Source: Thermococcus sp. CX2
GTDB taxonomy: Archaea; Methanobacteriota_B; Thermococci; Thermococcales; Thermococcaceae
NCBI RefSeq assembly: GCF_012027555.1
Contig: NZ_SNUQ01000001.1
Coordinates: 248,001 to 312,000, forward strand
Length of the DNA stretch: 64,000 nt
Direction of reading: 5' to 3'
Below the pieces are notes generated by a model. The model had not been told where the DNA came from. It worked only from the letters and a program-made list of their open reading frames with translations, and did not search any database. Below, in pieces: positions 25,578 to 40,750 of this stretch; position 1 is the stretch's first letter, and the number at the start of each line of letters is the position of its first letter. The position numbers and the translations under genes are program-made.

Positions 25578-26798
25578 TCACTTGCTGAGCGGGTAGAGCG
25601 AGTCGCGGTAGATGGCCGCGACGGTCTCCCTGGTAGCCTCGATTGGGGCAAGTGAGAGCAACAGGTCGAGGCTCGGGGTGGTCATGGCGAGTTCGGTGAG
25701 CTTGTCAACGTCCTCCTCGGTGAATCCGACGTCGGTGAGCTTCTGGGTAATTCCGATGTTGAAGAGCCACTCTTCAACCCTCTTTGCAACGAGCTCAGCC
25801 TCTCCTGGGACTCCCTTGGCCTCCGGGACGAGCGGCCTGTAGACCTCGGCGAGTACCCTGGCGGTGGCCGGGTAGATGTGCTTGATAACCGCCGGCAGGA
25901 GCATGGCGAGGCCGAGTCCGTGTGGAAGGTCCGGCTTCACGGCGCTGAGCGGGTGCTCGAGGGCGTGGGTGAAGTGGAGCAGGCCGTTGTCGAAGGATAT
26001 GCCCGCTATCGCGGAGGCGTAGAGCAGGTAGTACCTAGCCTGCAGGTTGTCCGGGTGGGACAGGGCCTCCGGGAGGTAGTCGAATATCAGCCTGGCGGTC
26101 TCCTGGGCGAGGAGTATCGAGTACGGGCTGGCGACCTTGGTGGTGGCAGCCTCAGTGATGTGGTTGAGCGCATCAATGGTTACGTAGCGAGTCTGGTCGG
26201 CCGGAAGCTTGGTCATGAGGGCGGGGTCATCAATCGAGTAGAGCGGGTAGATACAGTCGTAGGCTATGGCCGGCTTGTACTCCTTCTCAGGAATCGAAGC
26301 CACCGCGAACCTGTCAACCTCAGTTCCGGTTCCGTGGGTAGTGTTCACGGCTATGATGGGCTTGGCCTTCGTTGGGGTGAACTTAAGCTCGTAAAGATCC
26401 CTGGCAGTCTTGTCGGTGTACTCCAGCAGAATCGCAACGCTCTTGGCGCTGTCAATTGGACTTCCACCACCAATGCCAATAACGGCCTGGGCTCCGAACT
26501 CTTTACCGAGCTGAGTGGCCTCATCGATCATATCAACGGTCGGGTTTGGGCCGACCTTGTCGTAGTGGACGTACTCAATGCCGTACTCCTCCAGGGCGGG
26601 CTTGACAACGTCCCAAGCGCCACACTTCTTGTATGAGCTCTTTCCAGTGACGAGGATGACCCTGCTTATGCCGCGGTTTTCCTTGAGGTCCTTAGCTATG
26701 TCGTAAAACTTGTTAATGGCACCGACACCGAAGTAGGTCAGTGACCTGCACCTGAGCTCAAACACCTGGTTTATGGGGATCTGGGATTCCCACAACAT
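25578..26798 (-). CDS. Iron-containing (group III) alcohol dehydrogenase
   Basis: 406 residues from ATG 26798 (GGAGGGAT upstream), the length I recall for Thermococcus Fe-alcohol dehydrogenases. The NADP-binding region GIGGGSPIDSAKSVA is near residue 100. Iron ligands are in DALNHITEA (Asp and His), LHFTHALEHPL (His) and LPHGLGLAM (His). Characterised homologues are NADP(H)-dependent, oxygen-sensitive and reduce aldehydes to alcohols when reductant is in excess. A minus-strand TATA (TTTTTATCC, 26843-26850) and an exact SurR-type motif 31 bases further upstream (26882-26898) suggest regulation with the hydrogenase genes next door. Confidence 0.94.
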   Translation of the reverse strand: MLWESQIPINQVFELRCRSLTYFGVGAINKFYDIAKDLKENRGISRVILVTGKSSYKKCGAWDVVKPALEEYGIEYVHYDKVGPNPTVDMIDEATQLGKEFGAQAVIGIGGGSPIDSAKSVAILLEYTDKTARDLYELKFTPTKAKPIIAVNTTHGTGTEVDRFAVASIPEKEYKPAIAYDCIYPLYSIDDPALMTKLPADQTRYVTIDALNHITEAATTKVASPYSILLAQETARLIFDYLPEALSHPDNLQARYYLLYASAIAGISFDNGLLHFTHALEHPLSAVKPDLPHGLGLAMLLPAVIKHIYPATARVLAEVYRPLVPEAKGVPGEAELVAKRVEEWLFNIGITQKLTDVGFTEEDVDKLTELAMTTPSLDLLLSLAPIEATRETVAAIYRDSLYPLSK

Positions 26799-26881
26799 TG
26801 TACATCCCTCCAAATGTGTTCATTTATACCTACATCAACGGGGATAAAAACATTTCTCCAACCAGAAATGTACAACCACAT

Positions 26882-26898
26882 GTTTTCAACGAAGAGTT
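26882..26898 (+). promoter_or_regulatory. SurR-type operator GTTn3AACn5GTT upstream of alcohol dehydrogenase
   Basis: GTT-TTC-AAC-GAAGA-GTT is an exact match to the published extended SurR motif of Pyrococcus (GTTn3AACn5GTT). It lies about 31 bases upstream of the TATA box of the Fe-alcohol dehydrogenase, on the side expected for activation. SurR is a redox switch: reduced, it activates hydrogenases and represses sulfur-reducing genes. The rest of the gap 26799-27068 is AT-rich with no gene. Confidence 0.62.
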
Positions 26899-27068: not shown

Positions 27069-27575
27069 CTAAAGTATCCTCCCAACCCCCTCCATGCTCA
27101 CTGAGGAAATCCTCTCGCGCGCTATCTTTTCAGCCGTCCTGCGCCTTATCCGGTCCTCCACCGCTTCCGGCTTTCCAAAGAATATTGCTTCCGCCGGGCA
27201 CATCTCGACGCAAGCCGGCTCCATAGCAAGGCGTCTTCTGTCTGCACACATATCACACTTTGTCATGACCTTCGATTTGACGTCGAAGCTTGGAACGCCA
27301 AAGGGACACACTGCAAGGCACATGTAGCATCCTATGCACCTACCCGGGTTTATTATGATTGCCCCATCTTCATCGCGGTAGATCGCTCCAGCGGGACAGA
27401 CGTCCATACATGGCGCCCTCTCGCAGTGACGGCAGTTTATTGGAATCGGAAGTCCAGTGACGGTATAGTAAATCTTTATGTTGGGTTTGCCGTCGTGAAT
27501 GAAGTCGCAGACCGCCTCACAAGTCTCACAACCAATACACAGGCTGTAATCAACGTGGAGTACTCTTCGAACCAT
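27069..27575 (-). CDS. HycB/CooF-like polyferredoxin of the membrane hydrogenase operon
   Basis: 168 residues from ATG 27575 (GAGGTGAG upstream). Cysteines fit four [4Fe-4S] clusters: CIGCETCEAVC, CRHCERAPCMDVCP, CIGCYMCLAVCP and CDMCADRR...CVEMCP. It resembles HycB/FdhB/CooF electron-transfer subunits that link a formate or CO dehydrogenase to a hydrogenase. It is the last gene of the operon, 5 bases after the GltD-like gene. The catalytic dehydrogenase that such a subunit would normally serve is absent between here and the alcohol dehydrogenase, where there is only AT-rich sequence. Confidence 0.85.
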   Translation of the reverse strand: MVRRVLHVDYSLCIGCETCEAVCDFIHDGKPNIKIYYTVTGLPIPINCRHCERAPCMDVCPAGAIYRDEDGAIIINPGRCIGCYMCLAVCPFGVPSFDVKSKVMTKCDMCADRRRLAMEPACVEMCPAEAIFFGKPEAVEDRIRRRTAEKIARERISSVSMEGVGRIL

Positions 27576-27580
27576 CCCAC

Positions 27581-28639
27581 TCACCTCCCCATCAGCCACA
27601 GGTGCATGCTCTTGGCAGCATAAAGGCCGTCTTTAACTGCCTTACCAACTTTTGATGGGCCCAAAACGACGTCTCCAGCGGCAAAAACACCCTCCCTGCT
27701 CGTCATGTGATTGCTGTCAACCACAACGCGGCCCTTCCTGTCAACGGCTATCCCAATTTCTTCCGCAAATGGTGGGGTTGGATTTTGACCGACGGCGAAG
27801 ATAACATAGTCAACATCGATCTGGAAGTTCGAGCCCTCTATCGGAACGGACATTCTCCTGCCACTCTCGTCGGGCTCGCTGAGCTTGGTCTTCACTAGCT
27901 CAATGGCTCTAACCTTTCCATTCTCACCTATTATCCTGACCGGCATCGTCCTCTCAAGCCACTTCACGCCCCTCTGCCGGAGGAGGTTAATCTCGTAGGC
28001 CCCGGCCGGAGCCTCCCTTATCGTCCTGCGGTAGCTGAGGTAGACCTTATCCGCTCCGAGGAGAACGCTCTCCATGGCGGCATCGACAGCGGTGTGACCG
28101 GCGCCGACGACCAGCACTTTCTTGCCCTCCATAGGTGTTACCTCGCTCCAGCTCATGTGACCGAGCTTGGCGCTCTTTATCCTGAAGAGGTACTCGAGAG
28201 CCGGGAAGACACCCTCCAGCTCCGCTCCCTCTATGTCGGGAATCCAGCACTTCCATGTTCCCGTCGCTATGAGAACCGCGTCGTACTTCTCCACAAGCTC
28301 GTTGAAGTCCACCCTGTTCTCAACGAATTCATCACCGGATTCTCCCTCCGAATTTCCGAAACACACCTTGGTTCTGGTGAAGAACTTGACGTTGTAGACC
28401 CTTTCTAATTCTTCGTAGCCTTCCCTAACGCGGTATATTGGAATCCTGAACTCCGGTATGCCAAAGAGCATTAAACCCCCAGGTTCGGGCAGCTTGTCGT
28501 AGACGTGAACCTCATGCCCCTGGCAGACTAGGTAGCCAGTAACCGCCAAACCTGCTGGTCCGGCTCCGATAACGGCTATTTTCTTCCCAGTTGGCTCGGG
28601 TCTTTCCCTACACAGGAATGCAAACCTCATTCCTCCCAC
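27581..28639 (-). CDS. GltD/NfnL-like NAD(P)H-FAD oxidoreductase
   Basis: 352 residues. GTG 28639 is chosen because GGAGGTG ends 6 nt before it; ATG 28630 is the alternative. The FAD site is IAVIGAGPAGLAVTGYLV and the NAD(P) site is VLVVGAGHTAVDAAMESVLLGADKV. The late FAD motif GVFAAGDVVLGPSKVGKAVKDG is intact. It lacks the N-terminal ferredoxin-like double-cluster domain of full GltD/NfnL proteins and keeps only the reductase core. Within this operon it could pass electrons between NADPH and the HycB-like ferredoxin. Direction and donor are inferred. Confidence 0.85.
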   Translation of the reverse strand: MGGMRFAFLCRERPEPTGKKIAVIGAGPAGLAVTGYLVCQGHEVHVYDKLPEPGGLMLFGIPEFRIPIYRVREGYEELERVYNVKFFTRTKVCFGNSEGESGDEFVENRVDFNELVEKYDAVLIATGTWKCWIPDIEGAELEGVFPALEYLFRIKSAKLGHMSWSEVTPMEGKKVLVVGAGHTAVDAAMESVLLGADKVYLSYRRTIREAPAGAYEINLLRQRGVKWLERTMPVRIIGENGKVRAIELVKTKLSEPDESGRRMSVPIEGSNFQIDVDYVIFAVGQNPTPPFAEEIGIAVDRKGRVVVDSNHMTSREGVFAAGDVVLGPSKVGKAVKDGLYAAKSMHLWLMGR

Positions 28640-28644
28640 ATGAA

Positions 28645-28950
28645 TCACCTCCGAATGAGCTTTAACACAGTGTCTTCCGTAAGATCATCCACTGCAGAGA
28701 GAAGGATTCTCCTATCCTCTTCAGGAAGCAACTCTAGAGGAAGACTAAGCAGGTCTTCTGGTCTGATAAGAATCTCTCCTTCCCCCGCGTTGAGGCTCGC
28801 CCTTATGAGCTCCACGCACTCCTCACTCAGCGTTCCTACGATTCTATACAGCACAACATCGCCCGAGAAGTGGGCGAGGGTTCTACAGAGGTAGGGGGAG
28901 CTATAGTATGTGAGCCTTACCAAGCACCATGTGGTTCTTTTCGAGCTCAT
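28645..28950 (-). CDS. Small unknown protein encoded inside the hydrogenase operon
   Basis: 101 residues if ATG 28950 is used, which has GGTGA 6 nt upstream and overlaps the end of the small-subunit gene by 50 bases; TTG 28923 is an alternative. The sequence is a small alpha/beta protein (DVVLYRIVGTLSEECVELIRASL and LLSLPLELLPEEDRRILLSAVDDL). No cluster-binding or membrane motif is visible except two N-terminal Cys (WCLVRLTYYSSPYLC). Its position between the small subunit and the flavoprotein suggests an assembly or accessory subunit. Confidence 0.65.
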   Translation of the reverse strand: MSSKRTTWCLVRLTYYSSPYLCRTLAHFSGDVVLYRIVGTLSEECVELIRASLNAGEGEILIRPEDLLSLPLELLPEEDRRILLSAVDDLTEDTVLKLIRR

Positions 28951-29698
28951 CTTTAATCACCAGATACTCCCTTTCAAGGAACTTCATCGCAAACTTAACG
29001 CGTGAATCATCAGCTTTCGCGGTGTACTCAGTGACAAGCTGATGAAGGGTCTCCTTGGGATTCTCGCTCTTCTCGGAAGTCTCAACAAGCCGCAAGAAGT
29101 CCTCTAGGATATCATCCCTGTCAAAGTATCCAACTACTCTCCTCAGTTCTTCCCTAAGTAGTAGGTATATGCGCTCACTTACAGGCATATCCGAAGACAA
29201 CAAATCCGAAGCAGAAACGATATGGGATTCACCTCTGACCTTCTTTTCTTTTATGCCTACGAGCTGAGCCAGACCATACAATATCTCTTCGGGACTGGGT
29301 GGACACCCGGGGATGTATATGTCCGGCTTTTTGCCGTATTCTGCAAGGAGTATCTCTATGCCGCCTGTTCTTAGCAGGTCTTTTCCCCTGCTCGGGCAGG
29401 TATTGAAGATTGAGTATCCATCGTAGAAGATCCCACCACTGCATGCACAGGTTCCTACTGCAACCACTATCCTCGGTTTTGACGGCATTGCCTCGTAGAC
29501 AGCCTTCACCGAATAGTACGTTTGTCTGGTAAGTGGGCCCGAAACGAGAAGTGCATCTGCATGTCTCGGCGAACCAACGAGCTTGATTCCCATACGCCTT
29601 ACATCATAATAAGGAGTGAATACATCGAGTATTTCAAAGTCGCAGCTGTTGCACGAACCGCTGTTGACGTGAAACACCCACACAGAGCGCCGTTTCAT
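28901..29698 (-). CDS. [NiFe]-hydrogenase small subunit, group 4 (HycG/NuoB-like)
   Basis: 265 residues, start overlapping the preceding stop by ATGA. Ligands of the proximal [4Fe-4S] cluster are visible: HVNSGSCNSCDFEILDV (two Cys), AVGTCACSGGIFYDG and IYIPGCPPSPEEILYGL. A C-terminal extension of about 110 residues rich in Glu and Lys follows the NuoB-like domain and is longer than in E. coli HycG. It carries electrons from the ferredoxin subunit to the nickel site of the large subunit at the cytoplasmic face of the membrane arm. Confidence 0.92.
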   Translation of the reverse strand: MKRRSVWVFHVNSGSCNSCDFEILDVFTPYYDVRRMGIKLVGSPRHADALLVSGPLTRQTYYSVKAVYEAMPSKPRIVVAVGTCACSGGIFYDGYSIFNTCPSRGKDLLRTGGIEILLAEYGKKPDIYIPGCPPSPEEILYGLAQLVGIKEKKVRGESHIVSASDLLSSDMPVSERIYLLLREELRRVVGYFDRDDILEDFLRLVETSEKSENPKETLHQLVTEYTAKADDSRVKFAMKFLEREYLVIKDELEKNHMVLGKAHIL

Positions 29699-30237
29699 GA
29701 CTTATCACCCTCAAGAACTTTCTCTATCCGGCCTATCCTGCACCGTCTGCAGAGCCTTTCAACATCGCCCAAGTTGAACAGCTTATCCGGAGATATACTG
29801 TGCATCTTCAAAAACAGCCTCTCTGTGTAATCCTCGTAGCGACCACACCTGGGACATCTGTAAAGATTATGCTCCACAACTTCTACTAGGTCGCGTTTAT
29901 CTGGAGTCGCCAGCTCAAAGTTAATTGTTCCCTTCATGGCTCTCGTGGGGCAGACTTCAACACAGTAGTAGCACCTTATGCATCGTGCAATGTTTAGTAT
30001 TATCCTCTTCTTGCCGTTCTCATAGTCTAACTCGGCACTGAGGGCGTCTGATGGGCAGACGTTCACACAGGCAGTACATCCTATGCAGAGCGCGGGGTCT
30101 ATCCACGGGGCACCCCTATATTCCGGTGGCTTTTCGGTATCCGTGAAAGGATAGCGAGTTGTAACTGGGATTCTCACAGTGTCTTCCTCGGGCCTTTTCC
30201 ACCCTCTGAGCTTTTCTATAAAGCTAACCGTACTCAT
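29695..30237 (-). CDS. HycF/NuoI-like 2[4Fe-4S] ferredoxin subunit with zinc-ribbon-like tail
   Basis: 180 residues from ATG 30237, overlapping the large-subunit stop (ATGA). Two clusters are bound by CIGCTACVNVCP and CIRCYYCVEVCP (residues 50-95). A further pair of CxxC motifs (CPRCGRYEDY near residue 130 and CRRCRIGRI near 165) may bind a metal, a feature also seen in HycF-type proteins. It transfers electrons from the soluble donor module to the small subunit. Confidence 0.9.
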   Translation of the reverse strand: MSTVSFIEKLRGWKRPEEDTVRIPVTTRYPFTDTEKPPEYRGAPWIDPALCIGCTACVNVCPSDALSAELDYENGKKRIILNIARCIRCYYCVEVCPTRAMKGTINFELATPDKRDLVEVVEHNLYRCPRCGRYEDYTERLFLKMHSISPDKLFNLGDVERLCRRCRIGRIEKVLEGDKS

Positions 30238-31877
30238 CCACATCCCCCCGTTAGGGGAGCCGTCAGGATCCTAGCCTTCCCTCTTTTAACGTCCACAACC
30301 TGTATCCTCTCCGTGCAGGAATAGCACGGGTCGAAGGAGGTTATTATCAGTGGAGCATCCGCGACAGTGTATTCTTTGAGAACCTCTGGAACCACTGGTA
30401 GGGTGTTGTATGTGGGTGGTCTGACCTTCCAGCGGTATATCCTGTTGCCGCCTTCTGTCATCACATACATTACGAGCTCTCCCCTCGGCGCTTCGCAATA
30501 ACTAAGAATCTCCTGGTATTCTGGTAGTTTCTCTATTGGAGTGTATATCTCCCCTCCGGGCATTTCATCAATGGCCTGCTCTACTATCCATACACTTTCC
30601 ATGAGCTCATCCATTCTCTGGAGAACTCTACTCAGGACATCCCCTTTCCTGTAAACTGGAACTCTGAAGTCAATGTCCTTGTAGGCCGCGTACGGATAAT
30701 CTCTCCTAATGTCGATATTTATTCCGGAGGCCCTTGCATTCGGGCCGAGAACAGAGTAGTCCTTCGCGAGCTTTTTAGGCAGAACTCCTATCCCCTCTAT
30801 CCTCCGGATAAATGTGTTTGTGTTCAGGATCAGATCACGTATCTTTTCAAACTCATTCTTTAACTCTTGGATTTTTTTGAGTACCAGCTCCTTCCTGTAG
30901 TCAAGAAAGTCCCTCCTCACACCTCCAACAGTATTCATCCCATACGTTCTCCTGTTTCCAGTCAGGCGTTCCACCAGCCACATTATCGGCTCCCTGATGC
31001 GCCACGTGTGCATGAAACCCAAATCAAAGCCTGCCATGTGGCAGGTAACTCCCATCCACAAGAGGTGGGAGTGGATCCTCTCCAGCTCGAGGAGAACCGT
31101 CCGTATGTAAAGAGCTCTCTCCGGAACATCGGCTCCAACTATAGTCTCGATTGCTTGAACGTACGCCGTTGAAAACTGGAAACTACATATGCCGCATATT
31201 CTCTCTGCTATGAATGGTATTTGGTTATAGCCCAATCTGCTCTCACCTATTTTCTCTATGCTCCGGTGGGAGTAGAAGCCCCTGTATTCAACGTCCACTA
31301 TTCTTTCTCCTTCCACAAAGAGCCTGAAGTGCGCAGGCTCGTCAAGTGCAACGTGATATGGCCCGAGAGGAACGACAGTTGTGTCCTCCGGCCCAGGCTT
31401 ATAGTCCCCTTTTCTCTTCCCGAGGGGAGAATAGTCATGACTCACATCTTTTCTCAGGGGATATACATTCTCCGGCCAGTCCTCCGGAAGGACAAGCCTC
31501 CTTAGGTCTGGATGATTTTCGGGCTTCAGCCCCAATAAATCGTGAACTTCCCTCTCAGCCCAAAGCGCCGCGGGAAGTTTTTCTGCCACCGCGGGAAACG
31601 TTGGGTTTTTGGCGGGAAGATACGCCTTCAGGAGTATCCAGAGGTTTTTTCTTCCGACAGCGACGTTTATGACTGGGATGTAAGAAAATGTTCCAGTAAC
31701 GGGCCTCTCGTCCGTACCGACACTCATGGAGTAGTGAGTCGAATCTCCTCTTTCGTGCCAGTACAGCACCATTTCTTGGAGAGCAGCCCTATCAACGACG
31801 TAGAGAACTTGATTACCCGATAACCACTTCTTTCTTCGTATGAACTTTTCAAATTTCTTCTCAAACTCTTCGAGCAT
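30234..31877 (-). CDS. [NiFe]-hydrogenase large subunit with fused 30-kDa domain (HycE-like, group 4)
   Basis: 547 residues from ATG 31877. Residues 1-170 are the NuoC-like domain (ALWAEREVHDLLGLKPENHPDLRRLVLPEDW). The rest is the NuoD-like catalytic subunit. Both nickel-binding motifs are complete: ERICGICSFQFS and DPCYSCTER. After DPCYSCTER a 23-residue tail remains (IQVVDVKRGKARILTAPLTGG...), strongly like E. coli HycE, which is cut after the Arg by a maturation protease. So the gene predicts an active, processed nickel hydrogenase and not a complex I relative. It forms H2 from protons using low-potential electrons. Confidence 0.95.
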   Translation of the reverse strand: MLEEFEKKFEKFIRRKKWLSGNQVLYVVDRAALQEMVLYWHERGDSTHYSMSVGTDERPVTGTFSYIPVINVAVGRKNLWILLKAYLPAKNPTFPAVAEKLPAALWAEREVHDLLGLKPENHPDLRRLVLPEDWPENVYPLRKDVSHDYSPLGKRKGDYKPGPEDTTVVPLGPYHVALDEPAHFRLFVEGERIVDVEYRGFYSHRSIEKIGESRLGYNQIPFIAERICGICSFQFSTAYVQAIETIVGADVPERALYIRTVLLELERIHSHLLWMGVTCHMAGFDLGFMHTWRIREPIMWLVERLTGNRRTYGMNTVGGVRRDFLDYRKELVLKKIQELKNEFEKIRDLILNTNTFIRRIEGIGVLPKKLAKDYSVLGPNARASGINIDIRRDYPYAAYKDIDFRVPVYRKGDVLSRVLQRMDELMESVWIVEQAIDEMPGGEIYTPIEKLPEYQEILSYCEAPRGELVMYVMTEGGNRIYRWKVRPPTYNTLPVVPEVLKEYTVADAPLIITSFDPCYSCTERIQVVDVKRGKARILTAPLTGGCG

Positions 31878-31878
31878 A

Positions 31879-32769
31879 TCACCACCCCACGAACGAGAGG
31901 GCCAACACCACCAGCGATGTTATGAATACTTTCATGTTTATTCTCATGATCTGATCTATCCGGAGTCTTGAGCTTGTGCCCTCTACAGTTGCAAAGAGGG
32001 CGTAAATAGCCGTAGCAATTCCAAGCTGTAGCAGAAGGCGGATTGGCCAGGATATCGAACCAACTAACGGAAGTACTATAAAGCTTGACAGGAGCCATAT
32101 GAGTGCAAAGCGCTTGATGAGCAGTGCATAGAGGAAAACTCCGAGGAGTCTCCCGCTGTATTCTACAAACACTCCCCCACCGAGCTCTATTTCGGCTTCC
32201 GCAACATCAAAGGGCAGAAAACCACACTCAACGTAGACAGAATACGCGAGAAGGATATATGCAAGGACTGTCGAGAACGAGAGAGATAATGCTAGGGGAG
32301 CCTCTGATACCGTTAGGGTTCCAGAATTGAGGGCAAATATCCCAAGGGAGACTGCAAGGATTGGTTCGGTACTGAGCAGGATTATCATTTCTCTATGACC
32401 GCCTATATGAGAGAATGAGTTTTTAACGCTGAATGCTCCGAGCATAACAGATACACTGACCATGGCCACAACGTAGAGAACCACTATAACGTCTCCACCG
32501 AAGCTGAGTGGAGCAACACTGCCATAGGGCAGGAAGAGCGCCGCTGATATTGCGGCCGCAAGCGCGAGATAAGGGGCGATTACGAAGAGCTTATTATCTG
32601 TGGGCACCCTTGAAGGTAACCTGACCAGCTTTTCCAGGTCATAGAAAGTCTGAAGAAGAGGTGGGCCAGCACTGTACTGCAGTCTCGCCTTTATCTTCCG
32701 TACTAACCCATCGAAGAACGGAGGAAGTAGCAGGATGAAAACTAAAGAAATTGGCACGCTCGCATTCAT
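31879..32769 (-). CDS. Membrane subunit HyfC/NuoH-like of the hydrogenase
   Basis: 296 residues from ATG 32769 (GGGGTG 6 nt upstream; ATG 32775 possible). About eight hydrophobic helices. NuoH-type landmarks are present: a Gly/Pro-rich start of the first loop (ARLQYSAGPPLLQTFYDLEKLVRL) and the conserved acidic loop FDVAEAEIELGGGVFVEYSG. This subunit forms the junction between the hydrophilic hydrogenase arm and the ion-pumping subunits. It stops one base before the large-subunit start. Confidence 0.92.
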   Translation of the reverse strand: MNASVPISLVFILLLPPFFDGLVRKIKARLQYSAGPPLLQTFYDLEKLVRLPSRVPTDNKLFVIAPYLALAAAISAALFLPYGSVAPLSFGGDVIVVLYVVAMVSVSVMLGAFSVKNSFSHIGGHREMIILLSTEPILAVSLGIFALNSGTLTVSEAPLALSLSFSTVLAYILLAYSVYVECGFLPFDVAEAEIELGGGVFVEYSGRLLGVFLYALLIKRFALIWLLSSFIVLPLVGSISWPIRLLLQLGIATAIYALFATVEGTSSRLRIDQIMRINMKVFITSLVVLALSFVGW

Positions 32770-32792
32770 CCGCATCACCCCGCCAAAATTTT

Positions 32793-34727
32793 TCACACCC
32801 CACGCAGTACTGTCCAAAGCGTTCGAATATAACGAACCACAGGCATCAGCCAGGCTTCGTCAAGGTAAACCGCTGGGCACTCCCTTAAGTCATCGAGTGT
32901 CTTCACATCAACGCCCGGAATCTCAGAGACCTTGACGAAGTACTTGGCAATCCAGAGGTAGCCCCTTACAACCGCCCCAAGGATGGCCTCTCCTACCCGC
33001 TTAGCCGCACTTCCAAAGCCGTAGAATGCCCCGATTCTTTCCTCGCACTGTAAATAGTAGTCCCTTGCACGCATTCCAAAGCGGTCCTTTGGCAGCTCCG
33101 TTGAACCGGCGTCCCAGGGCTCGGCATCCTCCGTCTTACTCGGGAGAGCTATGTAGAGGCCAATCCCGATGATGCCAAGAATTATCAGGAAACCAACTGG
33201 CGAGAAGTACGTCGAGAGGTAACCGATGCCGGTCGCGTCAGAGCTCACTATCTCCATAACTGGCTCCGTCAAAAGCGGCACTACCAGCGCCGGGAAGATT
33301 CCTATGATGAGACACAAGATCGAGAGAATGCCTTGACCAAAGAGCATCGAAGCGGGAACCTCTTCTCCATCTAGCTCGGATTTGCCACAGAAAGCTGCAG
33401 TGTAGAACTTGAAAGAGTAGGCTAAGGTCACTGCACTCATGAACATTGCCAAGATTGAACCAAGGACAAAGAGACTCACTCCGGAGTAGTAGCCAGCTTC
33501 GTAGAGCATCCACTTGCTGAGGAAGCCATTGAACGGAGGAATCCCCGAGATGGCGAACGAAGAAAGAAGCGCAAAGAGGGCGGTGAATGGCATTACCCTA
33601 TAGAGGCCACCCAACCTGTTGAGGTCCTGGGTGCCGAGGGAGTACTCGAAGGTTCCGACAGTGAGAAAGAGAGAGCCCTTGAAGAGCGCATGGTTGAGCG
33701 CGTGGAAGAGTCCGGCCACCATACCTAGGGCGCCGACAATAGCTAGCTCACCCCCTCTGGGAATGAGCGCCATCCCGATTCCAACGCCGAGCCAGATGTA
33801 GCCCATCTGACCAACACTGGAATAGGCGAGCAACCTCTTTGCGTTTGTCTCTTTAAAGGCGTAGAGCGATCCAACGGCAAGAGTAATAATGCCCAGGATC
33901 GCAACTAGGTAGCCAAACTTAACGTTCGGTGGAAGCATAGTATAGGTCATCCTGAGCAGACCGTAGAGGGCCACTTTCTCCATTATCCCTGCTAGAAGTG
34001 ATGAAACGTTACTCGGAGCGGTCCTGTACACTTCTGGTACCCAGAAGTGGAAGGGCACTATTCCCGACTTCGCCATGAAGGCAAAAAGGAACGAGCCATA
34101 GAACAGGGCAAGAAGTGGCGTTGAAAGATTTTCGATGTTGCCGGCTATGTTAGTGTAGCTCATGGTCTCAAGTGAGCCGGTGAGGGAGTAGCCAATTCCC
34201 ATTGATATAAAGAGAGGAACCGTAGCAAGTACCTGCATCGCAATGTAGTAGTCCGTCGCGGGTTTGAGGCTCTTATCCTCGTCCCAGATAATCAGGACGA
34301 AAGAGCACAGCGTCATCAGCTCCCAGAAGAAGACAAACCACATTAGGTTGCCCGTAACGATAAGAAGGGCCATGGAAGCGAGGAAGGTGTTGTAAACCAG
34401 GGCGTACAGCCGTGCTTTGTCGAGCCCTTTGTACAGGTTCATGTAATCCACGGAGTAGACTGATGTAGCGAGGCCGCTGAGACCAAGTATAATCAGGAAG
34501 ACTAGTGAAAAGCCGTCAACGTAGAGTGGGACGCCTAAGAGGTGGCCCTCAATTGGGAATCTCTCCTTTGAGGTGTAGACTTGGAAGACGTAGCCTATCA
34601 GCGCAGTCGAGCCGAGCGCCGCGAAGAGGCTCGAGAGCCTAACCGATGCGCGGTAGCTTCCTACGACTCCCATAATGGCACCAGTGGTGAAGAAGGCGAG
34701 CGCAATCTCGAGTGCCTCTATTCCCAT
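32793..34727 (-). CDS. Antiporter-like membrane subunit (HyfB/NuoL-like) of the hydrogenase
   Basis: 644 residues from ATG 34727, which overlaps the preceding stop (TAATG). About 15 helices of the proton-translocating Nqo12-14/Mrp family. The motif EVYRTAPSNVSSLLAGIMEKVALYG corresponds to the conserved APTPVSALLHAATMV-type region, with a central lysine/glutamate pattern in neighbouring helices. A hydrophilic C-terminal extension of about 130 residues follows the last helices, as in NuoL/HyfB with a lateral helix. It probably couples H2 formation to proton or sodium transport. Confidence 0.9.
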   Translation of the reverse strand: MGIEALEIALAFFTTGAIMGVVGSYRASVRLSSLFAALGSTALIGYVFQVYTSKERFPIEGHLLGVPLYVDGFSLVFLIILGLSGLATSVYSVDYMNLYKGLDKARLYALVYNTFLASMALLIVTGNLMWFVFFWELMTLCSFVLIIWDEDKSLKPATDYYIAMQVLATVPLFISMGIGYSLTGSLETMSYTNIAGNIENLSTPLLALFYGSFLFAFMAKSGIVPFHFWVPEVYRTAPSNVSSLLAGIMEKVALYGLLRMTYTMLPPNVKFGYLVAILGIITLAVGSLYAFKETNAKRLLAYSSVGQMGYIWLGVGIGMALIPRGGELAIVGALGMVAGLFHALNHALFKGSLFLTVGTFEYSLGTQDLNRLGGLYRVMPFTALFALLSSFAISGIPPFNGFLSKWMLYEAGYYSGVSLFVLGSILAMFMSAVTLAYSFKFYTAAFCGKSELDGEEVPASMLFGQGILSILCLIIGIFPALVVPLLTEPVMEIVSSDATGIGYLSTYFSPVGFLIILGIIGIGLYIALPSKTEDAEPWDAGSTELPKDRFGMRARDYYLQCEERIGAFYGFGSAAKRVGEAILGAVVRGYLWIAKYFVKVSEIPGVDVKTLDDLRECPAVYLDEAWLMPVVRYIRTLWTVLRGV

Positions 34728-36181
34728 TACACCGCCACCCCTATGCTGGTTATGAAGTGGTAGCTGATCCATGGTGCTATGATTCCGAGGATTATGAGGA
34801 CCACTAGCGTTGCTTCCATCAGATAGGGAATCTCCACGTGCTCAGCGCTCGGTTCCCCGTAGAGCATCCTTCTGAGCCAGGTTATTGCCACTATGAAGAA
34901 GACCACTGCATCGAGGAGCACCAGGATGAGTGGTACCCAGCAGAGGGCCGCAGATAGTACCAATTCCCCATTCATCAGGATATACCCCTTGCTGAAAAAC
35001 AGGCCAAGGGGAGGAGCTCCAGCAAGACCTACCAGTGCCAAAAACCAGGCAACGCTCACGGTGGGCATGATTTTCCTCAGTCCGGTTATTTTTTTCATGT
35101 TGAGAGTCCCGAGGGCGTAGCTGAAGGCTCCAGCCGAGAGGAAAGCCAAACCCTTGACAAAGGCGTGATTGAAGAGCTGGAATATAGCCGCCTGCAGACC
35201 GTCGGTGTGGCCTAGAAGGGCGTAAAGCAGACCAACGTACATAACGCCCGCCATTCCTATGGTTGAGTAGGCGAACAGCCTTTTGGCGTCTTTCTGGAGT
35301 GGGTAATAAATTATGACCAGTATCTGGGTTATTGCCACGAGAATTAGCATAACATAGAAGGCCGTTCTTGGAATGGGGCTCATAAACTGGATTATCCTCG
35401 CCAGCAGGAAGACCCCCATTTCTACCATTGCCGCGCCGTTGAGGAACGCACTTGCGGGGGTCGGTGCCGTCATGGCGTCGGGCAACCATGAATAGAGGGG
35501 AAACTGGGCACTCTTGGCGAATGCAGCTATCATGGTACAGAGGAAGAGTATCAGCTTGGTGTCAGAGTCGAGTCTGGCTAGGGCGTAGAGGCTCAGGTCG
35601 TGGAGCTTAGTTACTCCTATCGCAACCGCCAGACACAATCCAATGAGGGCGCCTAGGTTGGTGACAAAAAAGGCTTTGTGGGCAGCCATGTGGGCTTCTT
35701 TGGTTCCGTAGTATTTTACGACACCCCAGCATGCTAGGTTCATCATCTCAAAGAAAATGAGCATCTGAAGCATTGATGACGCGTAGACAAACGCCAGCGT
35801 CGCTCCTACGAGAATAACCATCCAGGCGTAAAAGCGCCCTTTGCCCGAGTAGACAGGGTGCAGTCTGTTCTTCTCGCTTATGTAATTAATGGCATAGAGA
35901 AGGAAAATGACACTAATGATACTAACCTCAATGCCGATGAGAACGCTTATAGGGTCGATTATAACTCCGTAAACCTCGCCTATGGAGGAGGTCTTGAGAT
36001 AAACGATGTGGTGAACACCACGGACCTTTAGATATTCAAAGACTCCAATAGCGTTTTCAACAAATGATGCAGAAATCACCGCTAGCATGAAAGCATCAGC
36101 TTTTTTGCCGTCCAATTTTACCAGAAATGGGCCAAAAAGCAGGGGGATTAGGAAAGATAAGTTGAAATGTAGAAAATTCAT
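34727..36181 (-). CDS. Antiporter-like membrane subunit (HyfF/NuoM/N-like), first gene of the hydrogenase operon
   Basis: 484 residues from ATG 36181 with GGGGGTG 9 nt upstream. About 14 helices, with the family motif PDAMTAPTPASAFLNGAAMVEMGVFLLAR near residue 235 and the following KDAKRLFAYSTIGMAGVMYVG. It is the second ion-translocating subunit besides the 644-residue one, as in E. coli Hyf and in Thermococcus membrane-bound formate hydrogenlyases. No separate Mrp antiporter genes accompany it. Its promoter (TTTTAAAG, 36235-36242) sits 17 bases downstream of an exact SurR-type motif. Confidence 0.9.
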   Translation of the reverse strand: MNFLHFNLSFLIPLLFGPFLVKLDGKKADAFMLAVISASFVENAIGVFEYLKVRGVHHIVYLKTSSIGEVYGVIIDPISVLIGIEVSIISVIFLLYAINYISEKNRLHPVYSGKGRFYAWMVILVGATLAFVYASSMLQMLIFFEMMNLACWGVVKYYGTKEAHMAAHKAFFVTNLGALIGLCLAVAIGVTKLHDLSLYALARLDSDTKLILFLCTMIAAFAKSAQFPLYSWLPDAMTAPTPASAFLNGAAMVEMGVFLLARIIQFMSPIPRTAFYVMLILVAITQILVIIYYPLQKDAKRLFAYSTIGMAGVMYVGLLYALLGHTDGLQAAIFQLFNHAFVKGLAFLSAGAFSYALGTLNMKKITGLRKIMPTVSVAWFLALVGLAGAPPLGLFFSKGYILMNGELVLSAALCWVPLILVLLDAVVFFIVAITWLRRMLYGEPSAEHVEIPYLMEATLVVLIILGIIAPWISYHFITSIGVAV

Positions 36182-36234
36182 CTATTTTGCACCCCCGGGG
36201 TCCTATTGTTGACATAACCAGGCATTCCCCGTTC

Positions 36235-36242
36235 TTTAAAAG
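36235..36242 (-). promoter_or_regulatory. TATA box of the membrane hydrogenase operon
   Basis: Minus-strand CTCTTTTAAAGAAC contains TTTTAAAG. The predicted start site is near 36212, giving a leader of about 31 nt that includes the GGGGGTG ribosome site. The SurR-type motif ends 17 bases upstream, the position of an activator. Confidence 0.55.
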
Positions 36243-36259
36243 AGTTTTTTGATAGCTTT

Positions 36260-36276
36260 GTTTTCAACAAAAAGTT
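36260..36276 (+). promoter_or_regulatory. SurR-type operator GTTn3AACn5GTT upstream of the membrane hydrogenase operon
   Basis: GTT-TTC-AAC-AAAAA-GTT matches the published SurR consensus exactly and has the same orientation relative to its gene as the copy upstream of the alcohol dehydrogenase; the first nine bases (GTTTTCAAC) are identical in both. It lies just upstream of the TATA box. In Pyrococcus, SurR activates hydrogenase operons through such sites in the absence of sulfur. Confidence 0.68.
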
Positions 36277-36555
36277 AACTAAACGGAGTAAATGGCTAAA
36301 TATGGTTTAAATGGTCTCAATAAGTACAATTATGCTGTGTGCTGTCATTAAACATATTTGTTAATGGTCATGAAAAAAGTACAGCAAAAAAGTTCCTCAA
36401 GAGTATGAACTTTCCATTATCCATCAGTATAAGATCCATACACGACTCTGTTTGCTTGGGCAACAATGAAACAATGTGCTGTTTTGCTCATCCTTCCCCA
36501 TGGGACCAATATCTGTCGCCCTATTGTCTTAATAAACCATGTTGTAGACTTTTAA

Positions 36556-36583
36556 GTTTCAACGTAAACAAAAACGTTTCAAC
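36556..36583 (+). repeat. Two GTTTCAAC direct repeats upstream of hydB
   Basis: GTTTCAAC occurs at 36556-36563 and 36576-36583, a 20-bp period, that is two helical turns. The repeats end 20 bases before the hydB TATA box (GTTTAAAA, 36604-36611). Each is a SurR-like half motif with a 2-nt in place of a 3-nt spacer, so this may be a degenerate SurR site or that of another activator. Confidence 0.45.
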
Positions 36584-36695
36584 CTTTGGTTTACAATTTT
36601 CGGGTTTAAAAACGCTTTTTTATCTATCTACCAAGCCTAGACTGAGGGAACAAACATGAGCACGTGTACATTTATGTCCATTAGGGGGTGATAAT

Positions 36696-37799
36696 GTGAG
36701 ATACGTCAAGTTGCCAAAAGAAAACACATATGAATTTTTAGAAAGACTAAAAAACCTCGGAAAGCTGTACGCTCCAGTGAAAATTTCTGATAAGTTCTAT
36801 GACTTCAGAGAAATTGACGACGTCCGGAAGATTGAATTCAACTACACTAGAACCATAATGCCGCCCAAAAAGTTCTTCTTCGCTCCGAGGGAGAAAATGT
36901 TCGAATTTAGTATTTCAAAGGCAGAATACAAAGAGGTAATCCCGGAAGTAGAGCCATTCGTTTTGTTCGGCCTTCATGCCTGCGACATCTACGGTCTGAA
37001 GATACTCGACAGCGTATACCTGGATGAGTACCCTGACAAGTACTACAAGGTCAGGCGTGAAAAAGGCATAATCATCGGTATAAGCTGCATGCCAGATGAG
37101 TACTGCTTCTGCAACCTGCTAAGGACTGACTTTGAGCATGACGGCTTTGACCTGTTTTTCCACGAGCTTCCCGATGGCTGGCTGGTGAGGATCGGAACTC
37201 CAACGGGCCACAGGATAGTTGACAAGAACATCAAGCTGTTTACCGAAGTCACATCCGAGGACATCTGCGCCTTCAGGGAATTTGAAAGGAAGCGTGCCCA
37301 GGCATTTAGGTATCACGAAGAGTGGGACAACATCCACTATCTGCTGGAGCTCGAGATGGAGCACCCACTCTGGGAAAAAGAGGCGGATAAATGCTTTGCC
37401 TGTGGCAACTGCAGCACCGTCTGCCCAACCTGCAGGTGCTATGAGGTTAGGGATGTCGTGAACATTGATGGCGACACAGGCTACAGGGAAAGGCGCTGGG
37501 ATTCGTGTAAGTTTAGGAGCCATGCGCTCGTGGCTGGCGGTCACAACTTCAGGCCTACCAAGAAGGACCGCTTCATAAACCGCTATCTCTGTAAGATGTC
37601 CTTCCACTGGACGCTTGGAATCAACTTCTGTGTCGGCTGTGGAAGGTGTACCGCCTTCTGTCCGGCCGGCATTGATTTCGTGAAGAACCTCAGAATTATA
37701 GCTGGATTGGAGGACCCAGCCTGCCCGTCCGAGCTGAGCGAAGAAATCCCGAAGAAAGGTTTTGCATATGCCAACAACGTGAGGGGTGAGGACATATGA
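36696..37799 (+). CDS. hydB: Cytosolic sulfhydrogenase beta subunit (HydB)
   Basis: 367 residues from GTG 36696 (GGGGGTGA 4 nt upstream). Length equals, from memory, that of Pyrococcus HydB. The N-terminal 230 residues resemble anaerobic sulfite reductase subunit A. The C-terminal half binds two [4Fe-4S] clusters through [19 protein letters not shown] and [16 protein letters not shown]. It carries electrons between the flavoprotein HydG and the small subunit HydD. First gene of hydBGDA; its TATA box is at 36604-36611, giving a leader near 65 nt. Confidence 0.95.
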
Positions 37800-38671
37800 G
37801 CGAGTCCAACGTCTGCCTCTGCCACGACAATCCGTACGCCCTCGACAAGGTCAAAGTTCTCAGGGTGTACTCACTGACGGAGAAGGAGAAGCTTTTCCTC
37901 TTCAGGTTTGAGGATCCAGAGATAGCCGAAAACTGGACCTTCAAGCCAGGACAGTTCGTCCAGCTCACCATCCCGGGTGTTGGAGAGGTCCCGATAAGCA
38001 TCTGTTCATCGCCTATGAGGAAGGGATTCTTTGAGCTGTGCATAAGGAAAGCAGGAAGAGTTACAACCGTTGTCCACAGGCTCCAGCCTGGCGACACCGT
38101 CTTAGTGAGGGGCCCCTACGGAAATGGCTTCCCAGTGGACGAGTGGGAGGGCATGGACTTACTCCTAATCGCTGCTGGCCTCGGAACGGCTCCACTCAGG
38201 AGTGTCTTCCTCTACGCCATGGACAACCGCTGGAAGTATGGAAACATAACCTTCATCAACACAGCTCGTTATGGGAAGGACCTCCTCTTCTACAAGGAGC
38301 TTGAGGCCATGAAGGACCTTGCCGAAGCCGAAAACGTCAAGATAATCCAGAGCGTTACGCGCGACCCAGACTGGCCAGGCCTGCATGGGAGGCCTCAGAA
38401 CTTCATAGTTGAAGCCAACACCAACCCGAAGAACACCGCCATAGCCATATGCGGCCCGCCGAGAATGTACAAGGCAGTCTTTGAAGCGCTCATAAACTAC
38501 GGATACCGCCCGGAGAACATCTACGTGACTCTGGAAAGGAAGATGAAGTGTGGAATAGGCAAGTGCGGTCACTGCAACGTCGGAACGAGTACCTCATGGA
38601 AATACGTGTGTAAAGATGGCCCCGTCTTTACGTACTTTGACATAGTCTCAACCCCAGGGCTGCTTGATTGA
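37796..38671 (+). CDS. hydG: Cytosolic sulfhydrogenase gamma subunit (HydG), NADP(H)/FAD reductase
   Basis: 291 residues, start overlapping hydB (ATGA). Ferredoxin-reductase fold: FAD-binding region around LKPGQFVQL-type [18 protein letters not shown] and PISICSSP, the NADP-binding [17 protein letters not shown] and [12 protein letters not shown]-terminal Cys cluster ([13 protein letters not shown]...VCKDGP) binds a [2Fe-2S] centre. It exchanges electrons between NADP(H) and the iron-sulfur chain, allowing the enzyme to make NADPH from H2 or H2 from NADPH. Confidence 0.95.
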
Positions 38672-38681
38672 GGTGGTAGAA

Positions 38682-39470
38682 ATGACGGGGAAAATTAGGA
38701 TAGGGTTTTACGCTCTCACCTCATGCTACGGCTGTCAGCTCCAGTTCGCCATGATGGATGAAATAATTCAGCTCCTCAATAAGGCCAACATCGAGTGCTG
38801 GTTTATGGTAGACAGGGACAGCGACGAGGATAGGGAAGTTGATATAGCCTTCATCGAGGGAAGCGTTTCAACAGAGGAGGAAGTCGAGCTTGTAAAGAAA
38901 GTTAGGGAGAAGGCAAAAATAGTCATCGCGGTTGGCTCATGCGCTGTTCATGGAGGAGTGCAGAGCTGGGCCAACGACAAGAAGCTCGAAGAGCTTTGGA
39001 AGACTGTTTACGGCGATGCCAAAGTAAAGTTCCAGCCGAAGATGGCCGAGCCCGTTGAGAAGTACATCAAGGTTGATTACAAGCTCTACGGCTGCCCACC
39101 GGAGAAGAAGGACTTCCTCTACGCCCTTGGAACTTTCCTCGTCGGCTCGTGGCCGGAGGACATAGACTACCCAGTCTGCCTCGAGTGCCGCTTAAAGGGC
39201 AACCCATGCATACTCATAGAGAAGGGCGAGCCGTGCCTTGGACCAGTAACTGTAGCTGGTTGCGATGCGAGGTGCCCGAGCTACGGAATAGCGTGCATAG
39301 GGTGTAGAGGTGCTATAGGCTACGATGTTGCCTGGTTCGACTCACTGGCCAGGACATTCAAGGAGAAGGGCCTCACCAAGGAAGAAATCCTTGAGAGGAT
39401 GAAGATTTTCAACGCCCACAATCCAAAGCTCGAGGAGATGGTTAACAAAATCTTTGAGGAGGGAGAATGA
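38682..39470 (+). CDS. hydD: Cytosolic sulfhydrogenase delta (small) subunit (HydD)
   Basis: 262 residues from ATG 38682 (GAGGTGG upstream); a longer frame from TTG 38664 overlaps the ribosome site. Proximal cluster ligands: [20 protein letters not shown] and [10 protein letters not shown]. Medial and distal cluster ligands lie in [29 protein letters not shown] and CIGCRG. It conducts electrons to the nickel site in HydA. Length agrees with Pyrococcus HydD (about 261). Confidence 0.95.
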
Positions 39471-40750
39471 TGTACATACCAATTACTGTTGATCACATCG
39501 CGCGTGTAGAGGGAAAAGGCGGAATCGAGATAATCATGGGCGACGAAGGCGTTAAGGAGGTCAAGCTCAACATCATTGAAGGTCCAAGGTTCTTTGAGGC
39601 CATAACAATTGGCAAGAAGCTTGAAGAAGCCCTGGCCGTTTATCCAAGAATTTGCTCCTTCTGTTCAGCAGCTCACAAGCTCACCGCCCTGGAGGCTGCT
39701 GAGAAAGCGGTAGGCTTCACCCCGAGGGAGGAGATTCAGGCCCTGAGGGAGGTCCTCTACATAGGCGACATGATAGAGAGCCACGCGCTTCACCTCTACC
39801 TCCTCGTCCTGCCAGACTATCTCGGCTACTCCAACCCGCTCAGCATGATAGATGAATACAAGAAGGAAATCGAGATAGCCCTAAAGCTCAAGAACCTCGG
39901 CTCGTGGATGATGGACGTTCTTGGAAGCAGGGCGATTCACCAAGAAAATGCTATCTTGGGTGGCTTCGGGAAGCTCCCCGATAAAACCACACTAGAGGAG
40001 ATGAAGGGGAAGCTCAAGGAGGCACTTCCGCTGGCAGAATACACCTTCGAGCTCTTTGCAAAGCTGAAGCAGTACAAAGAGGTGGAGGGCCCGATAATCC
40101 ACATGGCAGTTAAGCCGAGGGGAGACGTCTACGGCATCTACGGGGATTACATCAAGGTGAGCGACGGTTTCGAATTCCCAGTTGAGGAGTACAAGAAGCA
40201 CATAGTTGAGAGGGTTGTGGAGCACAGCTTCGCCAAGCACAGCTTTTACAACGGCGAAAGGCCATTCATGGTCGGCGCAATTTCAAGGATAGCCAATAAC
40301 GCAGAGCTGCTCTACGGCAGGGCCAAAGAGCTCTACTCGCAGTATAGAGACCTCCTACAGCCAACCAACCCCTTCGCCAACAACCTCGCCCAGGCGCTTG
40401 AGCTCGTCTACTTCATAGAAAGGGCCATAGACCTAATCGACGAAACCCTCGCTAAGTGGCCGATACGGCCGAAAGACGAGGTAGAGATAAGGGACGGAAG
40501 GGGAGTAAGCTTCACCGAGGCACCGAGGGGACTGCTCGTCTACACGCTCGAGATCAAGGACGGTAGGGTGGCCTACGCTGATATAATAACGCCGACCGCG
40601 ATGAACCTGGCCATGATGGAGCACCACGTCAGGATGATGGCAGAGAAACACTCTAACGATGAGCCGGAGCAGCTCAAGCTCCTCGCGGAGATGGTCGTCA
40701 GGGCCTACGACCCGTGCATCTCCTGTTCGGTGCACGTGGCGAGGCTTTGA
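39470..40750 (+). CDS. hydA: Cytosolic sulfhydrogenase alpha (large, NiFe) subunit (HydA)
   Basis: 426 residues from ATG 39470, better spaced from GAGGAGGGAGA than ATG 39467; overlaps the hydD stop. Nickel ligands: RICSFCSAAH near residue 65 and the C-terminal DPCISCSVH. Only four residues (VARL) follow the His, the short tail expected to be cut by a maturation protease. Group 3b enzyme: reversible H2 oxidation coupled to NADP+, with sulfur reductase activity in vitro. Followed by a T-rich terminator. Confidence 0.96.
   Translation: MYIPITVDHIARVEGKGGIEIIMGDEGVKEVKLNIIEGPRFFEAITIGKKLEEALAVYPRICSFCSAAHKLTALEAAEKAVGFTPREEIQALREVLYIGDMIESHALHLYLLVLPDYLGYSNPLSMIDEYKKEIEIALKLKNLGSWMMDVLGSRAIHQENAILGGFGKLPDKTTLEEMKGKLKEALPLAEYTFELFAKLKQYKEVEGPIIHMAVKPRGDVYGIYGDYIKVSDGFEFPVEEYKKHIVERVVEHSFAKHSFYNGERPFMVGAISRIANNAELLYGRAKELYSQYRDLLQPTNPFANNLAQALELVYFIERAIDLIDETLAKWPIRPKDEVEIRDGRGVSFTEAPRGLLVYTLEIKDGRVAYADIITPTAMNLAMMEHHVRMMAEKHSNDEPEQLKLLAEMVVRAYDPCISCSVHVARL

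Follow-up and report, generated by a model that had tools for sequence, protein, structure and literature searches.

A predicted SurR activator site in front of a hybrid membrane hydrogenase-like operon in Thermococcus sp. CX2

Archaeal DNA from Thermococcus sp. CX2, analysed here as one stretch of 64,000 nucleotides (the window), contains at positions 36260–36276 what we predict, at a probability of about 0.85, to be a functional SurR activator site of a leftward operon encoding group-4-hydrogenase-like membrane proteins. The kind of site is known, and this one adds a predicted member to the already known SurR regulon. The site falls within the 514-bp intergenic region that separates two divergent operons, where GTTTTCAACAAAAAGTT is read on the plus strand with 0 mismatches to GTTNNNAACNNNNNGTT, that is, as an exact GTTn3AACn5GTT. 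This is the long SurR motif, in reverse orientation relative to the leftward operon. Read along the minus strand, the motif is followed by 17 bases (36243–36259), a TATA-like CTTTTAAAG (36242–36234), about 50 bp and the ATG at 36181, which has a ribosome-binding-like GGGGGTG just 5' of it. An A-rich, BRE-like stretch lies ahead of the TATA-like box and forms with it the core promoter TCAAAAAACTCTTTTAAA (36235–36252, minus strand). Both the exact match and the 17-base distance to the TATA box had been claimed in an earlier sequence-only reading of the window, and both are borne out. The motif is hence placed upstream of BRE/TATA with respect to the leftward operon, and SurR sites upstream of TATA activate (PMC12162507).

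SurR is the switch with which this group of heat-loving archaea senses sulfur. In the regulation that we propose, reduced SurR would bind 36260–36276 when elemental sulfur is absent, just upstream of BRE/TATA, and would aid the recruitment of basal factors. Transcription would then start near 36212 and yield a transcript in the order mD-mB-mH-mL-mI-mS-m101-GltD-FeS. With sulfur, the CxxC of SurR would be oxidised to a disulfide, SurR would depart and the operon would be switched off. In this scheme we infer SurR binding, the direction of regulation and the start site.

The genome encodes a SurR orthologue (G000:C1:489909-490598) that is 66% identical to P. furiosus PF0095 (PDB 2qlz) and retains the redox CxxC (CTEC; context LTCTECYF). 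The 232-aa query for this search differs from PDB 2qlz (Transcription Factor PF0095) at one residue. The surR gene carries the long motif in its own promoter, just upstream of the gene and before TATATAA. The same motif stands at the mbh, mbs, frh, fdh2, shII/nfn, xfn/nfn-type, hypA and hypF promoters of this genome, and at that of a CoA-disulfide reductase (Nsr family). Among these, the frh promoter precedes an F420-hydrogenase-type alpha subunit, the xfn/nfn-type promoter a flavoprotein and the fdh2 promoter FdhA. Two Mrp clusters with the long motif before the first gene were typed by their large subunits, one as Mbh (L176; RICGIC and DPCLSC) and the other as Mbs (L175; ligand motifs absent). 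The motif-bearing gene set is the regulon described in Thermococcales (PMC12162507, PMC8595942, PMC10025317). At the sequence level, the earlier proposal that the operon is linked to the SurR redox switch is supported by the encoded CxxC-bearing SurR, by the motif at promoters of the known regulon and by the recurrence of the promoter unit described below.

Elsewhere in the window, an overlapping pair of long SurR motifs (26874–26898) lies upstream of an iron alcohol dehydrogenase (adh) gene (25578–26813, minus strand), and the long motif at this adh promoter is kept in relatives (L090, L126–L128). More overlapping inverted pairs of the long motif, with the same 8-bp offset as those at adh and shII, occur at three other loci of the genome (L148, L153 and L019). 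The neighbouring genes are a lipoprotein-like gene, a small ORF and a transporter, and these loci are candidate new SurR targets.

The promoter of the leftward operon recurs as a unit. When the intergenic region was aligned to fetched loci, the stretch from motif to TATA (36234–36277) matched fdh2-type promoters only. A motif-anchored alignment of ten fdh2-mfh2 promoters, drawn from several genera, shows agreement with no gap across the motif, the spacer and TATA. A 41-bp pattern combining the motif, the fixed spacing and BRE/TATA (AACn5GTTn3AACnAAGCn5AAAAn4TTTTAA) gave 15 matches in 14 genomes and 0 for the reversed control among 94 genomes of the family, a count that is illustrative and dependent on the known members, given that the pattern was designed after several of them had been seen. 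Its absence elsewhere in the 94 genomes is informative. Apart from the 36260–36276 site, the matches are all promoters of formate-dehydrogenase operons: 13 lie directly before fdhA, and one (L186) is separated from an fdhA-like gene by a membrane-protein ORF. The promoter of fdh2-mfh2-mnh2, the Group 1A formate hydrogenlyase of Thermococcales, shares with the site the orientation of the motif, the distance to BRE/TATA and about 41 bp without gaps. However, the site here precedes mD, without fdhA, and the flanks and the 5' leader are dissimilar. A further likeness is to the genome's own mbh promoter: the 18-bp core TCAAAAAACTCTTTTAAA occurs only twice genome-wide with up to 2 mismatches allowed, both times exactly, in front of the leftward operon and of mbh. 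SurR motifs also lie upstream of the mbh core, but at a greater distance, and one more is found there just before the start codon. Group 1 fhl promoters bear SurR sites (PMC10025317).

GTT and AAC triplets are common, and the motif could be a chance match in an AT-rich intergenic region at which SurR is inactive. Genome-wide, 39 exact matches compare with 22 for the pattern read backwards as a control, so that perhaps half of all exact matches are fortuitous. The motif, counting its short form, occurs at least once in about 8% of T. piezophilus promoters (PMC8595942). The motif alone is moderate evidence by the genome-wide control and weak evidence by the T. piezophilus figure; position and context carry the weight. 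Within the 64-kb window, 3 exact matches are observed where 0.31 are expected, and 0 of 100 shuffles reach 3. Because the intergenic region is AT-rich, local shuffles were used in place of this window-wide estimate (0.31 per 64 kb). With 20,000 dinucleotide-preserving shuffles for each value, keeping the composition of the intergenic region itself, the probability of at least one exact match is 0.0145 in the 514-bp intergenic region and falls to 0.0044 when only the 150 bp upstream of the gene are taken. This last value for the leftward promoter speaks against chance, as do a position, orientation and spacing equal to those of fdh2 promoters and a core promoter identical to that of mbh, and we consider a chance match very unlikely.

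Another reading would have the site serve the operon on the other side of the shared intergenic region, which encodes the cytoplasmic sulfhydrogenase I (SH; beta, gamma, delta, alpha; 36696–40750, plus strand; subunit identities partly from sequence features). This assignment was rejected on distance, with 420 bp from the site to the start of shB, and on the SurR-like site that the SH promoter has of its own, GTTTCAACCTTTGGTT with an n2 spacer (36576–36591, plus strand). Conservation with other SH promoters is also seen only from 36566 onward, and it is highly improbable that 36260–36276 acts on SH and not on the leftward operon. The same kind of n2-spacer variant has been described for SHI of T. 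piezophilus (PMC8595942). Across about 28 SHI promoters compared, the AACCTTTGGTT half is nearly invariant and the outer GTT variable, which suggests that the n2-spacer form at these promoters may be a second accepted form of the site. SurR might also bind 36260–36276 but repress or only modulate, or another regulator might dominate, so that there would be no simple switch-on in sulfur-free conditions. Sulfur does not keep SurR from activating hydrogen genes in T. barophilus, pressure alters the pattern, and a non-SurR regulator has been proposed for the codh cluster (PMC12162507). Nonetheless, the motif here is in the activating position, and sulfur brings down the homologous fdh2 operon of T. 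onnurineus, whose fdh2-mfh2-mnh2 proteins drop strongly (PMC4463584); we judge a repressing or modulating role unlikely. Activation of the leftward operon by SurR is the reading that we prefer.

The leftward operon comprises nine overlapping or abutting minus-strand genes from 36181 to 27069. The first, mD (34727–36181), encodes a 484-aa NuoL/HyfD-type antiporter-like membrane subunit that scores 550 bits as NCBIfam hydrogenase 4 subunit D (cut-off 430). It is followed by mB (32793–34772), a second antiporter-like membrane subunit (HyfB/HycC-like), mH (31879–32817), a NuoH/HycD-like membrane subunit, and mL (30234–31877), a fused NuoC/D-type large subunit (HycE-like). After these come mI (29695–30243), a HycF-like subunit with two [4Fe-4S] clusters, and mS (28901–29698), a HycG/NuoB-like small subunit. 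The small 101-aa protein m101 (28645–28950) gave no family in a family search, and a homologue (39–44% identical) follows mS in fdh1-mfh1 clusters. The last two genes encode a GltD-like FAD/NAD(P)-binding subunit (27581–28648), which is the counterpart of Fdh3B by position and identity and is 90–93% identical to the nfd subunit of relatives, and a 4Fe-4S subunit (27069–27599), the counterpart of Fdh3G2 (Fdh3 subunit naming from PMC8965080). FdhA is absent from the operon; the genome has its genes of the FdhA family at other places. Genes of an Mrp/Mnh antiporter module are absent from the operon as well: GltD and FeS close it, and adh follows. An identity as an ordinary FHL was rejected for lack of FdhA. 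The GC content of the operon is 0.48–0.55 compared with 0.51 for the window, which is not a striking signal of foreign origin.

The sequence-only reading had named this a membrane hydrogenase operon, a name that stands as far as the group-4-hydrogenase-like products and the four Cys are concerned, but not for two invariant His, lost in mL, or for FdhA. To judge from the encoded proteins, 'hydrogenase' is here a statement of homology that implies no activity. The large subunit mL keeps all four Cys ligands (CxxC and DPCxxC, in RICGICSFQF and DPCYSC), but has Phe235 in place of the His of RxCGxCxxxH and Met470 in place of that of EAPRGxLxH. The L1 His (RxCGxCxxxH) is present in all 29 other proteins of the mL tree set, and both His are present in 17 aligned proteins and in the genome's own MbhL. 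Given that each His change takes at least two base changes, sequencing error is unlikely as the cause of H235F and H470M. Further losses are found in mD, which lacks four charged or His positions that are invariant in relatives (D99, R165, H248 and E310), and in mB, which lacks one such position (K174). In the mL tree the window protein forms a long single branch beside mfh1 and related clades. A change of function is a possible meaning of the residue losses in mL, mD and mB.

The operon stands out more by its gene content than by its motif: it is a hybrid of an mfh-type module and GltD/FeS genes. Among the 94 family genomes, none yielded a close orthologue of the operon as a whole (best mD 67%), and a check of motif conservation therefore falls on the homologous fdh2-type promoters, at which the motif is kept. 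The best relatives are fdh1-mfh1 modules, about 65–67% identical. The fdh1-mfh1-mnh1 module has the same subunit order from mD to m101, with mL and mD 65–67% identical, whereas the operon here has no FdhA, no Mrp/Mnh antiporter genes and an mL without the two conserved His. In its place beside SH the operon corresponds to the fdh3/nfd operon that is divergent from sulfhydrogenase I (T. onnurineus TON_0538-0543; L126–L128). The last two genes (GltD-like, FeS) are common to both, but where that operon has its formate transporter and fdhA part, the group-4 module is found here. The three relatives with the closest SH (96% identical) have fdhA, FeS, GltD, FeS and then adh beside SH, and their GltD and FeS genes are approximately 88–93% identical to those of the window. 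From this gene order we infer that an mfh-type module replaced the formate transporter–fdhA part of an nfd (fdh3) operon.

In contrast to the window operon, its fdh3/nfd relatives lack the SurR motif: the long form was not found within 450 bp of shB in nfd-sh relatives or fhl-sh genomes. This agrees with a published survey that reports nfd-sh and fhl-sh promoters, and its Groups 2–4, to be free of SurR sites (PMC10025317). The window thus departs from the rule for this position. Fdh3 of T. onnurineus, the counterpart in the relatives, is reported to go up with sulfur (PMC8965080). An mfh-type module with a SurR promoter of the fdh2/mbh type would extend SurR control to the NAD(P)H and FeS subunits that were kept.

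The predicted SurR regulon gains an operon at a place, divergent from sulfhydrogenase, where no SurR site turned up in the published survey (PMC10025317), and a compact promoter signature is now available for finding further such sites. Tentatively, and with less than even confidence, we suggest that the product of the operon is a group-4 membrane complex of a new kind. In it, a GltD/FeS module linked to NAD(P)H would be joined to an Mfh-type membrane arm whose mL, without two near-invariant His, would work in another way than a hydrogenase does, or with altered properties. A SurR promoter of the fdh2/mbh type would have brought the operon out of the sulfur mode, which goes with the place of fdh3, and into the hydrogen-mode regulon. 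In the hybrid operon, the module that binds NAD(P)H may be wired to a hydrogenase-like arm in the membrane.
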